Positions 37,899 through 49,901 of a stretch of DNA of 64,000 bases are shown piece by piece (position 1 is the first letter of the stretch; every line of letters begins with the position of its first letter). Below the pieces are notes generated by a model, which worked only from the letters and a program-made list of their open reading frames with translations, did not search any database and was not told the origin of the DNA. This DNA comes from Lachnospiraceae bacterium. GTDB taxonomy: Bacteria > Bacillota > Clostridia > Lachnospirales > Lachnospiraceae. The translations under genes were made by a program, and so were the position numbers. The stretch spans positions 1 through 64,000 of the forward strand of contig JAGAQU010000064.1 of NCBI GenBank assembly GCA_017622575.1, given 5' to 3'.

Positions 37899-37927
37899 AA
37901 AGAGACATACATTTGTATGCCTCTTTT
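37898..37927 (+). terminator. Terminator between recN and spoIVB
   Basis: AAAAGAG / CTCTTTT stem with inner CATAC/GTATG and a run of eight T. The left arm begins in the -10 element of the candidate sigma-G promoter, so transcripts started there would lack half of the stem. Confidence 0.8.
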
Positions 37928-37960
37928 TTTCATAAAAAATGGATAAAAGGATGTGAAAAT

Positions 37961-39262
37961 TTGGAGCAGATAGAGAATTTAAATAGTGAAAAGGCAGGCG
38001 TTTACAGAACTGTTTTATATATCATATTGAGCTTTGGAACCTTACTTACCCTTGCATCTGCTTACTACTGTATGTGGTGCACAGTGCCCTCTACCATCAT
38101 GGTAAAGGCGGGTGTGGAGCAGACACTTGATTTCAGACTGCCTGCGTCCGGCGAAATCTATAAAGATGCGGTGCAGGCAAGCAGTCAGGCGAAGAGTAAT
38201 CTGGATACGGAAAGTCTGGTCATCGATTTCAGATCTCCTGTGACTGTAAAGGCGAACCAGATCGAAAATTACAAAATGCAGGTGAAGCTGTTCGGCGTGA
38301 TCCCCTTAAAGAATGTGGATGTTGAGGTGATTCAGGACATACGCCTAAAGCCTGCCGGCATTCCCATAGGAATTTACGTAAAAACGGAAGGCGTACTCGT
38401 CGTAGGAATCGGAGAATTCGAAGGAGAGGACGGACAGACATACAGCCCTGCAAAATATATTATGAAGACAGGAGATTATATTCTGGAAATGAATGATGAG
38501 GAGATTACGGGAAAAAAACAGTTAATGGAAAAGATAGGATGCTGTGAGGGACAGGACGTTATCTTCAAGATTAGGCGGGGAGAGGAAGAATTATATGTGA
38601 TGGCAAAGCCCCAGTTAAATGAAAACGGGGAATATAAGATGGGAATCTGGATTCGTGATAATGCCCAGGGTGTGGGGACTATGACTTATGTGGATGAAAA
38701 CGGTCAATTTGGGGCTCTCGGTCACGGCATCAATGATGTGGACACCAGTACACTCATGTCCCTTAAGAGCGGTACACTGTACCACACGGAAATCATAGGC
38801 ATCACAAGAGGAAGCAACGGATCTCCGGGAGAGCTTACCGGGTTTATTGAATATGACGACAGCAACATAATGGGAACCATCACGGAAAACACAACGAAAG
38901 GAATCTTTGGCATCTGTTCACAGAAAACGGTGGAAAGCAGTCTTTATGATTATATGCCCATAGGATTAAAACAGGAAATTGAAAAAGGACCTGCGAAGAT
39001 CATTTGTTCCATTGGCGATGAAGCGAAAGTATATGATGTAGAGATCACGGATATCAATCTTCAGAATGATAATATCAACAGGGGAATCGTGCTGAAGATC
39101 ACAGACCCGGAGCTTCTCTCTGTCACAGGAGGGATCGTCCAGGGAATGAGCGGAAGTCCCATCATCCAGAACGGCAAGATTATTGGAGCGGTAACCCATG
39201 TTCTTGTGCAGGACTCCACGAAAGGGTATGGGATTTTCATAGAAAACATGCTTTCTCATTGA
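37961..39262 (+). CDS. spoIVB: SpoIVB serine peptidase
   Basis: Forespore-made protease that triggers pro-sigma-K processing by cleaving SpoIVFA. One N-terminal membrane helix (VLYIILSFGTLLTLASAYY), a PDZ domain (about 130-215, KTGDYILEMNDEEI) and the S55 peptidase domain with His255 in GALGHGINDVDT, Asp near 382 and the serine in QGMSGSPIIQNGKIIGAVTH near 399. TTG at 37961 follows AAGGA by 9 bp; the earlier frame extension lies in the terminator. 433 residues. The expected next gene, spo0A, is absent at this place. Confidence 0.94.
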   Translation: MEQIENLNSEKAGVYRTVLYIILSFGTLLTLASAYYCMWCTVPSTIMVKAGVEQTLDFRLPASGEIYKDAVQASSQAKSNLDTESLVIDFRSPVTVKANQIENYKMQVKLFGVIPLKNVDVEVIQDIRLKPAGIPIGIYVKTEGVLVVGIGEFEGEDGQTYSPAKYIMKTGDYILEMNDEEITGKKQLMEKIGCCEGQDVIFKIRRGEEELYVMAKPQLNENGEYKMGIWIRDNAQGVGTMTYVDENGQFGALGHGINDVDTSTLMSLKSGTLYHTEIIGITRGSNGSPGELTGFIEYDDSNIMGTITENTTKGIFGICSQKTVESSLYDYMPIGLKQEIEKGPAKIICSIGDEAKVYDVEITDINLQNDNINRGIVLKITDPELLSVTGGIVQGMSGSPIIQNGKIIGAVTHVLVQDSTKGYGIFIENMLSH

Positions 39263-42542: not shown

Positions 42543-42976
42543 TCATAAGAGAATTGAAGGAAACAGATATCCCGGCATGTGCCGATATTCTTTGCAGTGT
42601 CTATAACAATGAGTTGTGGATGTGCAGATGGACGAAAGCGGTAGCAGAGAATTATCTGCGGGATTTCTTCGGGCACAGTAAGTTTGTAGGCTATGTGGCA
42701 GAGGAGGATTCTGTCATTATCGCCGGTCTGTTTGCCCACGAAAAGATATGGTGGAACAACAGTGAAGTGTTTATTGAGGAGATGTTCGTGACGCCGGAAA
42801 GGCAGGGCTGCGGGATCGGAACGGCACTTTTGAAGGAAGTAGAAAAATACATAGAGGAAAAACAGCTCGCAGGCATCACTTTGTCCACAAATAAATATGC
42901 CCCGGCACCGAAGTTTTATGAGAAGAACGGTTTCATGTGCTGCGAGCATGTCATCTTCATGGCAAAAGAACTTTAG
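42539..42976 (+). CDS. GNAT-family N-acetyltransferase
   Basis: Acetyl-CoA-dependent acyltransferase of 145 residues. The acetyl-CoA loop PERQGCGIGTALLKEVEKYIEE (Q/RxxGxG/A) is near residues 86-106, after the strand EMFVT. Its ATG overlaps the stop of the AraC gene (ATGA) and GGAG precedes it, so both are co-transcribed. The 3' end overlaps the convergent exosortase gene by 20 bp. Substrate unknown. Confidence 0.88.
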   Translation: MIIRELKETDIPACADILCSVYNNELWMCRWTKAVAENYLRDFFGHSKFVGYVAEEDSVIIAGLFAHEKIWWNNSEVFIEEMFVTPERQGCGIGTALLKEVEKYIEEKQLAGITLSTNKYAPAPKFYEKNGFMCCEHVIFMAKEL

Positions 42977-43712
42977 AGTGTTTCCTGATTGTACCTATCA
43001 GGCAAAACAGGAGTAGTATGGGGAGACATACAAATGATATCAGTGTTGCATATCCCGTAAATTTTTCGCCACCCTTTGTAGAGGCGTGGTTGAGAAAAGG
43101 GATTCCGAGTACGATCATAAAATACCAGAAAGCAGGAACAAGATATTGCAGGTTTCTGCTTTTTTTCTGTTTGCCGGAAGGTTTCACAAAATAAGTGTCT
43201 GTCAGATGATAAATTACGAGGAGAGATGCAAAGTACGTCGCAGTGCCGATAGCGGTGTGAAGAGTATCCTGTGTAAGAGAACTGCTGTAAAATCCTGTCT
43301 GTCCGAGAAATAGAGGGACATAAATGGACAAGATGATTCGAAGGACATTAACCAAAACAGTCAGCACATAGGAAGCCGGAAGGCTTAGGACTGTCCATAG
43401 GAAGCCCTTCTTAGCGCGGTGTACAAAGGAAAAAATAAGCATGGCGATGAGAATGATGAGGAACCGGACACCGCTGCAGGAGGGCGCGATCACATATTTC
43501 AGACTGTGGTTTACATAGCCCATGTCCGGTTCATAGGAAAAGGAAATACCGGTCATGAGTGTCACAAATCGTGCTGTGGGGCCAAGAATCCATCGCAAGG
43601 CTTCACAGGAGGCCTTGGCGTAAAAAAGCTTCAGAAAGAGGAGTGTGAGAATCCCCATAAGATAATAGATATTATTTTTTTGAACGGTTTCTTTCAGCTT
43701 ACACAAATTCAT
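42957..43712 (-). CDS. Exosortase-family membrane transpeptidase (XrtK-like)
   Basis: Polytopic membrane protein of 251 residues. The three catalytic residues of exosortases/archaeosortases occur in order and spacing: Cys79 in IAPSCSGVRFL, Arg125 in VNVLRI, His152 in LHTAIG. About seven membrane helices are visible, with an N-terminal helix at residues 16-32. Exosortases cut C-terminal sorting signals and transfer the protein to an anchor. The gene follows that for a VIT/vWA protein with a fitting C-terminal tail, 48 bp downstream on the same strand. The start is ATG at 43712 with AGAGG 6 bp before. I recall the exosortase K type as the Firmicutes variant; this assignment is by pattern only. 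Confidence 0.82.
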   Translation of the reverse strand: MNLCKLKETVQKNNIYYLMGILTLLFLKLFYAKASCEALRWILGPTARFVTLMTGISFSYEPDMGYVNHSLKYVIAPSCSGVRFLIILIAMLIFSFVHRAKKGFLWTVLSLPASYVLTVLVNVLRIILSIYVPLFLGQTGFYSSSLTQDTLHTAIGTATYFASLLVIYHLTDTYFVKPSGKQKKSRNLQYLVPAFWYFMIVLGIPFLNHASTKGGEKFTGYATLISFVCLPILLLFCLIGTIRKHSKVLLP

Positions 43713-43760
43713 CACATACCTCTTTCTTTTTATGAATCAATAATAAAATCGGAACAACTG

Positions 43761-45782
43761 TCAGGCAATTATATTGCGGCGTTTTCGGTGACGCATCCCA
43801 CCGATCAGCATGGCACCGATGAATGCCGCAATCAGAACAATTTCCCCCGGCTCCGAATACGCTCTGTAACCACCGCCTACGGAAAGATTGGATACCTGAA
43901 GAGGCAGGGGAAGGGGCTGGTTCACATCAGTGCTTTCTCCCTCCGGGTTCCTGATTTCTTCCACCACCGCAACAAATGAGGTGTAGGGAGTCATGATGCC
44001 GTAGTCAAGTCCGATTTGCGTTACTTCTTCCTTTACGGAAGGATCATCCTTGCTGTAGCCGTAATCCATCAGCCGCTCGAGGCGCATTCTTGCCCAAAGA
44101 TAGCGGACGGCATCCCCTTTTTCATAAGCTGTGACATTCTCTGCCTTGATTTCCTGTATATAGTCTTCCTTTCCCTTTTTCCCGGTTATAGTAATGGTCC
44201 CTTTGGGTTCTCCCTTCCATTTGCCAAAAAGTACAATGGGTTTTTGGGCAAACAAAGTGGAGGGGACAGAAGGCTCTACATCATACACGTCAAAGCCGTC
44301 ATAAGTAATTTGAATGTCCGAAAGAAGAGGAGACTGAATATAGGTGCGGAACCGGTCTGCAGTGGCAATAGCATCTTCGGCGTCTGTGACAATAAAGGAT
44401 TCTCCAAGACCGGCTGTTGCGATACCCTTGATCAGGTATTCATTTACCGCGTTGCCGATGCCGAAGGAGAAGAAGTTTGCCTTGTCCATATTGTCATTGA
44501 TGATATCAAATGCATTCTGCTCGCCGGAGACATAACCGTCTGTGATCACCACAATACTTCTGGCAATATTATGTTTGGAAGGGATGGCAATAGCATCCTC
44601 CAAGGCAGGGGTGAGGGAGGTCCCGCCGTAACCCTCCTGCTTGTCAATAAGATTCAATGCTTTCTTTATGTTTTCCTCTGTGGCAGGCACGGATTTTTTC
44701 GACATCTGAACCGAGGAACCGGAAAAGAGGATCAGATTAAAGGAATCCGCCTCCCGGAGATTGGAAACAAGATCCCGGATCAAAACCTTGGCTGTATCAA
44801 GGGGATAGCCATTCATGGAGCCGGATACATCCAGGACAAAAATGTATTCCCGTCTGGCGATATCCTCCGGCTCGAAGTGTTCCGGCGGCTGCACTGTCAG
44901 CATAAAGTAATTTTCACCGTTTCCCTTGCTTAGCAAAAGACCACTCTGAATCTCATCTCCGGTCAGTCTGTAATTTAAGATAAAATCACGGTTTCCCGCA
45001 AATTTTTCAGGGTTGGACAGGGTGACCAGTGCAGAGGCTTCTGTACTTTTTACTACATTTATTTCATGCGATTTGCATGTCAGCTCCGTGATGGGAACTC
45101 CGGTAGAGAGATTGACGGTTATGTTGTATGTTTGATCGGGAGTTTTCCCATCGGGCAGATAGGGTGTCCCAACAAAATGATTATGATCATCGGAAGCATC
45201 CTCTGAGGCGCTCATGTAGCGGGGGCCGACTACCGTTGGAAAAACAAATTCATAAGTGCCCTCGCAAGGCGTGATCAGCTGGGTATAGTGGAGTTCAATT
45301 CTGGCGATGTCACCCGGCATAATATTGGCAACATCCATTGTGAACACATTGGGCCGCTGTTCTTCCAGAAGAGAAGCACTTTTTCCTTCGCTTTTGGCCT
45401 GCTCGAATTTCTGGTTTGCTTCTTCCCGCTCTTTGATCTGTGCGGTGACCATCTGATTGCCGATCTGCATTGTCATGCCATGAACAGTGACATCAGTGGA
45501 TGCGGGAAAAACATATTTGGCATTGATGGGAGTTTTCCCTTCATTTGCATAGGTCTGGATCACATAGGTTTCAGCGATCATACCGTTAATATTGACCGTT
45601 ACATCCGTTCCTTTTAGGGGAAAGCAGACAACGGAGGAATCACTGCTTTCCACAACAAAGTAGGGTGCTAAAATACTGTCCTGATCCTCTGCGTTGTTTT
45701 CTTTGGCTAAGGCCACAGGAGCGGATGAGACAAAAATAAGTAATGCAAGAAGCATACACAGCCATTTTCTTTTCTTTTTCAT
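43761..45782 (-). CDS. VIT- and vWA-domain surface protein with C-terminal sorting-like tail
   Basis: Secreted protein of 673 residues. Signal peptide 1-26 (ending APVALA), a VIT domain at about 30-175 (VTVNINGMIAETYVIQTY; YVFPASTDVTVHGM), then a von Willebrand A domain at about 310-480 with the MIDAS motif DVSGS at 318-322. The end shows a tripartite tail: EPG motif near 644, hydrophobic helix IVLIAAFIGAMLIGGM and basic RHRKRR. This tail resembles PEP-CTERM-type exosortase signals, not LPxTG. The downstream exosortase gene is its probable processing enzyme. The role (adhesion, matrix, binding of other proteins) is unknown. GAGG lies 10 bp before ATG. Confidence 0.85.
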   Translation of the reverse strand: MKKKRKWLCMLLALLIFVSSAPVALAKENNAEDQDSILAPYFVVESSDSSVVCFPLKGTDVTVNINGMIAETYVIQTYANEGKTPINAKYVFPASTDVTVHGMTMQIGNQMVTAQIKEREEANQKFEQAKSEGKSASLLEEQRPNVFTMDVANIMPGDIARIELHYTQLITPCEGTYEFVFPTVVGPRYMSASEDASDDHNHFVGTPYLPDGKTPDQTYNITVNLSTGVPITELTCKSHEINVVKSTEASALVTLSNPEKFAGNRDFILNYRLTGDEIQSGLLLSKGNGENYFMLTVQPPEHFEPEDIARREYIFVLDVSGSMNGYPLDTAKVLIRDLVSNLREADSFNLILFSGSSVQMSKKSVPATEENIKKALNLIDKQEGYGGTSLTPALEDAIAIPSKHNIARSIVVITDGYVSGEQNAFDIINDNMDKANFFSFGIGNAVNEYLIKGIATAGLGESFIVTDAEDAIATADRFRTYIQSPLLSDIQITYDGFDVYDVEPSVPSTLFAQKPIVLFGKWKGEPKGTITITGKKGKEDYIQEIKAENVTAYEKGDAVRYLWARMRLERLMDYGYSKDDPSVKEEVTQIGLDYGIMTPYTSFVAVVEEIRNPEGESTDVNQPLPLPLQVSNLSVGGGYRAYSEPGEIVLIAAFIGAMLIGGMRHRKRRNIIA

Positions 45783-45845
45783 ATTCGTTTACCTCATATG
45801 TTTTCATTTCTTTTTTACTTTCTGACATTAAAATACAATACCCAT

Positions 45846-45911
45846 GCATCAAAGTAGCATCAAAGTTGTATCCATTTTGCATCATTTTTGCATCAAAGTT
45901 GCATCATAAAT
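45846..45911 (+). promoter_or_regulatory. Six direct repeats with 11-bp period (operator)
   Basis: Units begin at 45846, 45857, 45868, 45879, 45890 and 45901, each starting GCATCAAAGT or a close variant (third unit GTATCCATTTT). The last unit touches the -35 box of the rightward promoter. The 11-bp period places all sites on one face of the helix, the geometry of PhoB/OmpR-type boxes; the regulator is unknown. The same region lies upstream of the leftward VIT-exosortase genes. Confidence 0.85.
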
Positions 45912-49277: not shown

Positions 49278-49311
49278 GCGTAAACTGGGAGTATTTGACG
49301 ACGGATGACAG

Positions 49312-49340
49312 TTGAATGGGCGTTTCATGTTTTTTATAAT
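49312..49340 (+). promoter_or_regulatory. Sigma-A promoter of the Spo0A-domain gene
   Basis: TTGAAT (49312-49317), 17-bp spacer, perfect TATAAT (49335-49340). A near-match to the Spo0A box (TGACGAC, consensus TGNCGAA) lies at 49296-49302, just upstream of the -35 element. The promoter lies inside the possible frame extension, which supports the start at 49380. Confidence 0.7.
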
Positions 49341-49379
49341 GTTTTTGTAGCAAGATTTGAAAAATATGGAGGAATTGTG

Positions 49380-49901
49380 ATGGAACAGCTTAATTTAACT
49401 GCGATAAAGGATACGGATAAGGTATATCAGATTCTGGATGACCTGATTTCCATGAACAGGGAATTCCAGATTATGATCACTGTACCATCAGGAAGCAAAT
49501 CATCAGAGAAAAAGAGCAGGGGACAGGAGAGTAAGGAGAAGAAGCTTACTTTTGACCTTGAAAAGGACGTAACGGATATGATCCATGAGATCGGTGTGCC
49601 GGCTCATATTAAGGGATATCAGTACTTAAGAGAAGCGATCATGATGTCGGTGGAAGATCCGGATATGCTTGGCTCCATAACAAAAGTGCTTTACCCTACC
49701 ATTGCAAAGAGATATCAGACTACTTCAAGCAGAGTGGAAAGAGCCATCAGACATGCCATAGAGGTAGCCTGGAACAGAGGAAAAATGGAAACACTGGATA
49801 ATCTCTTCGGGTATACTATAAGTACAGGAAAAGGAAAACCTACCAATTCTGAATTCATTGCGCTGATCGCAGACAGGATCAGGCTGCAATATAAGAAATA
49901 A
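49380..49901 (+). CDS. Stand-alone Spo0A DNA-binding domain protein, no receiver domain
   Basis: 173 residues. From residue 66 on it is a close match to the Spo0A effector domain: [56 protein letters not shown] (recognition helix) and [18 protein letters not shown]. The first 65 residues are a short helical segment plus a Lys/Ser/Glu-rich linker; the roughly 120-residue receiver with its phospho-Asp is absent. ATG at 49380 follows GGAGG by 7 bp, and a promoter lies at 49312. It should bind 0A boxes without phosphorylation control, as a constitutive form, competitor or phage/island-type relative. It lies 10 kb after spoIVB, the usual neighbour of spo0A. Confidence 0.9.

Follow-up and report, generated by a model that had tools for sequence, protein, structure and literature searches.

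Exosortase chemistry and the acceptor remain open, partly because the best-known systems combine many substrates with an outer membrane. We asked whether an exosortase-family gene in a Lachnospiraceae bacterium (assembly GCA_017622575.1, contig JAGAQU010000064.1) forms a dedicated system with the secreted VIT/vWA protein encoded beside it. Throughout, the window is the whole stretch of DNA analysed, positions 1 to 64,000 of the forward strand of this contig. Exosortases were still called a Gram-negative family in 2025 (PMC12188702), and an exosortase G associated gene has been annotated in Levilactobacillus (PMC8951740). A strict enzyme/substrate pair in a lineage with cultured members would be a clean case for study.

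Exosortase K and its VIT/vWA neighbour

An earlier note on this DNA had described an exosortase-family enzyme, with a catalytic triad at residues 79, 125 and 152, encoded directly after a VIT/vWA protein. Both open reading frames lie on the minus strand with exactly the limits given there (Table 1), and the exosortase gene starts 45 bp past the VIT/vWA stop codon, an adjacency kept in all 59 loci considered below. The family call was correct and could be sharpened to exosortase K (XrtK): the enzyme matches the HMM TIGR04287 at 118.6 bits, against a cut-off of 55, over residues 13–177 (E = 1.8e-34), as do all 17 aligned relatives (E <= 0.001). The exosortase/archaeosortase superfamily model TIGR04178 scores 46 bits. 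The triad is real, at Cys80, Arg126 and His153 when counted from the GTG start; the numbering shifts by one residue because the GTG lies one codon before the ATG. All three residues are invariant in distinct relatives, as is Asn123.

The AlphaFold model of the exosortase (pLDDT 85.8) places two helices, 188–210 and 216–250, beyond the core. Enzymes of this kind are about 245–300 aa long, whereas canonical XrtKs have 164–194 aa, and the predicted two-helix C-terminal extension beyond the XrtK model is a new feature of the enzyme here. Among solved structures, Foldseek returned no convincing match to the model (best E 0.37). A profile search of PDB sequences and a search of viral contigs found no exosortase relative.

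The neighbouring protein carries a VIT domain (PF08487) and a vWA domain (VWA_3/VWA). All 43 distinct relatives keep its MIDAS residues D318, S320, S322 and D415, and 42 keep T388, with one Thr-to-Ser exchange. In the predicted structure (pLDDT 71.5), VIT and vWA are arranged as in ITIH1, the inter-alpha-inhibitor heavy-chain fold: Foldseek matched ITIH1 (6fpy_B) at E 1.4e-34, and VIA-align superposed 518 residues, the greater part of the ectodomain, on inter-alpha-inhibitor heavy chain 1 (Z 23.2, rmsd 5.4). Phmmer likewise related residues 61–608 to human ITIH4 (E 5.6e-25). A ligand-binding surface protein would be the natural reading. The closest NCBI family, the marine sortase target TIGR03788, aligns with residues 59–629 at 425 bits, under its cut-off of 551.65, and the match ends at profile position 591 of 629, short of that family's tail.

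Table 1. Features of the exosortase K locus, in window coordinates.
Feature	Position	Strand	Details
VIT/vWA protein gene	43761..45782	(-)	673 aa, secreted, predicted sole substrate
Exosortase K (XrtK) gene	42957..43715	(-)	252 aa from GTG, 251 aa from ATG; polytopic membrane protein
Glu644-Pro645 of SEPG sorting motif	43848..43853	(-)	context GYR-x-x-[SAC]EP; 43/43 distinct relatives
C-terminal hydrophobic helix, residues 647-663	43794..43844	(-)	from sequence; helix 646-672 in model
Basic stretch RHRKRR, residues 664-669	43776..43793	(-)	from sequence
MIDAS DxSxS metal-binding motif of vWA (D318, S320, S322)	44817..44831	(-)	T388 and D415 complete the motif
Codon of Cys80 (Cys79 from ATG), predicted nucleophile	43476..43478	(-)	invariant 43/43 distinct relatives
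Codon of Arg126	43338..43340	(-)	motif N-x-x-R-I; invariant 43/43
Codon of His153	43257..43259	(-)	motif LHTxIG; invariant 43/43
11-bp tandem array, TGATGCA + 4 mostly A/T bp	45845..45906	(-)	5.6 units, upstream of VIT gene; Tandem Repeats Finder

Inheritance of the pair and the sorting tail

Across 37 genomes of the genus, 21 carry both genes, 16 carry neither and none carries one alone. When 84,980 species genomes were scanned, 38 loci emerged, with record titles mostly from Lachnospiraceae. The two genes are adjacent in 21/21 genus loci and 38/38 scan loci, the VIT gene lying directly upstream each time; the two sets overlap, and the 59 loci, window included, represent 43 distinct protein pairs. 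In many of these loci the genes overlap by 4 bp. The flanking genes vary: outside the pair, every gene family is limited to 8 or fewer of the 39 loci compared. The nearest relatives of the window pair are in Lachnospiraceae, the closest (82% identity) on a contig titled uncultured Clostridium sp. No close relative of the pair came up when the same searches were applied to 61 genomes from the wider family and order. Weak exosortase matches in two genomes (G019, G035) lie inside 659-aa open reading frames and were set aside as chance, and two others (L131, L132), in proteins of 205–217 aa, fall below the XrtK cut-off.

The pairwise divergences of the enzyme correlate with those of its predicted substrate (Spearman 0.68, Mantel p 0.001, calculated without species-tree control). 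Judged from sequence, the family match and the pairing are together more than chance, with an HMM E value of 1.8e-34 and perfect linkage across 59 loci. Co-inheritance and adjacency are evidence of linkage, not of catalysis.

The C-terminus of the VIT/vWA protein reads ...GYRAYSEPG-EIVLIAAFIGAMLIGGM-RHRKRR-NIIA. The earlier note had parsed this tail as a PEP-like motif, a hydrophobic helix and a basic stretch, and the sequences of the relatives agree: Glu-Pro is present in every distinct relative, and the last 14 residues bear a net charge of +2 to +7 in 43/43. Mean column identity is 0.82 in the motif, 0.38 in the helix and 0.33 in the basic end, with helix hydrophobicity kept. Such a conservation pattern would follow if the motif were recognised by its sequence and the helix and basic end by their character. 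The tail is of the [S/A/C]EP kind found with exosortase K, rather than PEP-CTERM, and the tails inspected at the pair loci contain no LPXTG.

A second prediction of the note was a single substrate, to be checked by a genome search for other proteins with the same tail. That search found no second protein: in its own genome, the VIT/vWA protein is the sole match to a tail profile, and across the genus each pair-bearing genome has one strong match. The next match in the genome of the window (E 0.476) overlaps a 435-aa open reading frame in a cluster of antiporter-like (multi-subunit) membrane-protein genes and was taken as chance. The search would miss substrates that have only a very short motif in common. 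With perfect co-occurrence, adjacency and one such tail per pair-bearing genome, the predicted one-enzyme, one-substrate relation is well supported in this group of gut Lachnospiraceae.

Known systems, mechanism and acceptor

The locus had also been presented as a Gram-positive novelty, and this was overstated. NCBI already models XrtK, and five further genomes from this phylum (placed by phylum, not by envelope type), including two from the same order, have canonical XrtKs adjoining MSEP-CTERM proteins that match TIGR04286 at 679–1109 bits (cut-off 150). That system and the pair here share the enzyme family, by curated cut-off, and a cassette of two genes in which the one target lies beside the enzyme and combines a VIT or VIT-like domain with an EP-helix-basic end. 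The remainder of the target differs: MSEP-CTERM partners have about 800–940 aa and no vWA match, whereas the predicted substrate of the pair is secreted, has 670 aa and combines VIT with vWA, and TIGR04286 does not match the window protein at E <= 10. By its own score the enzyme is an XrtK, and the pair, on sequence grounds, is a variant of the XrtK/MSEP-CTERM system.

Other systems are more distant. The VIT protein of the XrtN system (TIGR04477) is also, by its NCBI name, sorted by an exosortase, but the exosortase family is another one and TIGR04477 does not match the window protein. PEP-CTERM/EpsH systems are defined by a PEP motif in many unrelated proteins and by adjacent exopolysaccharide genes; here [SAC]-Glu-Pro marks one protein per genome, and the pair is alone in recurring beyond 8 of 39 loci. 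Archaeosortase A has a PGF-type tail and several substrates. The Haloferax volcanii enzyme shares with XrtK the superfamily and the active-site cysteine (PMC7157517).

VIT/vWA proteins are known with GlyGly-CTERM tails, with LPXTG tails next to a dedicated adjacent sortase, or with PEP-CTERM tails in Verrucomicrobium (PMC3237569). In the marine proteobacterial sortase/target system (TIGR03784/TIGR03788), the ectodomain aligns nearly full length and an enzyme again adjoins its single target (PMC3237569), but the tail is LPXTG and the enzyme a sortase, to which exosortases are not homologous; the window protein lacks that family's combination of score, LPXTG tail and adjacent sortase. Verrucomicrobium spinosum likewise hands a VIT/vWA ectodomain to an exosortase (PMC3237569, Fig. 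3C), but its tail is matched by the general PEP-CTERM model TIGR02595, the host is Gram-negative, and it is not described as a dedicated XrtK pair. That one VIT/vWA ectodomain occurs with sortase, rhombosortase and exosortase tags alike supports the view of these unrelated enzymes as having reached a similar end.

In the open-access literature searched, exosortase K/MSEP-CTERM was not named in the relevant sense, and exosortase and VIT domain were not found together. Nor did we find described there the combination of XrtK with a VIT/vWA protein or its host range. Also new here are the C-terminally extended enzyme, the lack of phosphatidylserine decarboxylase in the genus and the array upstream.

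Adjacency with joint inheritance, the triad, the invariant Glu-Pro and the single tail favour a dedicated pair. We consider it likely that XrtK processes the paired VIT/vWA protein at its Glu-Pro tail and passes it to an envelope acceptor. The signal peptide would export the VIT/vWA protein, and its C-terminal helix would hold it in the membrane, leaving the basic end on the inner side. Exosortase K, probably co-transcribed with it, would recognise the GYRxxSEP-helix-basic tail. By analogy with archaeosortase A, Cys80, aided by Arg126 and His153, would attack near Glu-Pro, releasing the helix, and the new C-terminus would pass to the envelope acceptor. The mature product would be an adhesin-like, metal-ion-dependent ectodomain of predicted ITIH heavy-chain fold.

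Exosortase K could instead be a protease only, with the VIT/vWA product either released or retained in the wall by non-covalent contacts, and no acceptor involved. The pair has no conserved neighbour related to an acceptor. The search for phosphatidylserine decarboxylase (PF02666), an enzyme that supports processing by archaeosortase A in Haloferax (PMC7157517), gave 0 of 37 genus genomes, with its control positive in six well-known genomes. However, archaeosortase A, the best-studied relative, couples cleavage with lipid attachment (PMC7157517), and the acceptor could be another lipid or a glycolipid. We regard cleavage without transfer as unlikely.

Less probable still, the helix might be a plain membrane anchor, with the exosortase acting on something other than this protein or assisting it in folding or quality control. 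A helix followed by basic residues is common at the C-terminus of membrane proteins, but here Glu-Pro is invariant in 43/43 although the helix drifts, enzyme and substrate are never seen apart, and the catalytic triad is retained. That one of the three sortases of the same genome, which represent another anchoring route, anchors the VIT/vWA protein while the exosortase serves other, undetected substrates is highly improbable: TIGR03788 is a sortase-target family, but its match stops before the tail, LPXTG is missing from the tails inspected, and the pair is inseparable over 59 loci.

For transfer by exosortase K, the acceptor can be narrowed. Processing by Haloferax archaeosortase A needs PssA and PssD, with archaetidylethanolamine as the proposed acceptor (PMC7157517), whereas no PssD-type enzyme was found in the genus here. 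Because phosphatidylserine decarboxylase was not found in these genomes, phosphatidylethanolamine made by this enzyme is unlikely as acceptor, and the same would hold for any acceptor made via the phosphatidylserine decarboxylase route. Its absence narrows the acceptor candidates.

The upstream repeat array and the genomic surroundings

The 11-bp tandem array ahead of the VIT gene is probably an operator and promoter region. In 38/38 other loci, too, TGATGC-like units follow one another with period 11 upstream of the VIT gene; among the 39 regions, window included, 37 have at least three units and 2 have two, and one of 7,800 trials with mononucleotide-shuffled regions attained three units. 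Canonical XrtK/MSEP-CTERM loci carry no 11-bp array. Searches of literature text for the repeat sequence returned unrelated strings only.

Similar arrays occur in 31 of 37 genus genomes, several of them without the pair, and a control with the reversed pattern gave no match. The array looks like a genus-wide operator. Direct repeats spaced as 7+4 bp are those bound by PhoB/OmpR-type response regulators, and the regulator here is perhaps of this type. The window's own genome has two convincing arrays, the second (C21:18526-18597, locus L162) upstream of a membrane-anchored polysaccharide deacetylase, and this position suggests an envelope-remodelling regulon. Array-led genes in relatives encode an amidase-deacetylase fusion, a sulfatase-domain membrane protein resembling LTA synthase, a weak PdaC match (under the Pfam cut-off) and several secreted proteins of no known family. 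Expression of the exosortase pair would probably start from this array, acting as an operator common to envelope-modifying genes.

A broader proposal would be that this exosortase of a Gram-positive bacterium attaches one metal-dependent ITIH-like adhesin covalently to an envelope acceptor that is not phosphatidylethanolamine, and that the pair belongs to a regulon for envelope remodelling whose mark is the 11-bp TGATGC-repeat operator, undescribed until now. We put this forward tentatively, as possible in its full form.

The host had been taken for a Gram-positive spore former. Its Lachnospiraceae lineage and the spoIVB gene in the window fit this, but all three genes for a Spo0A C-terminal domain found in the genome lack a receiver domain, and the description is secured only in part. 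One Spo0A_C gene lies in the window downstream of spoIVB and two elsewhere (L146, L147); their open reading frames span 200, 174 and 149 aa. Two explanations offer themselves: sporulation may be under altered control, or the assembly may lack a full-length spo0A. In spore formers, spoIVB and spo0A are usually neighbours; in the window, spoIVB (37913-39262) and the Spo0A_C gene (49305-49901) are about 10 kb apart, and the exosortase pair lies between them.
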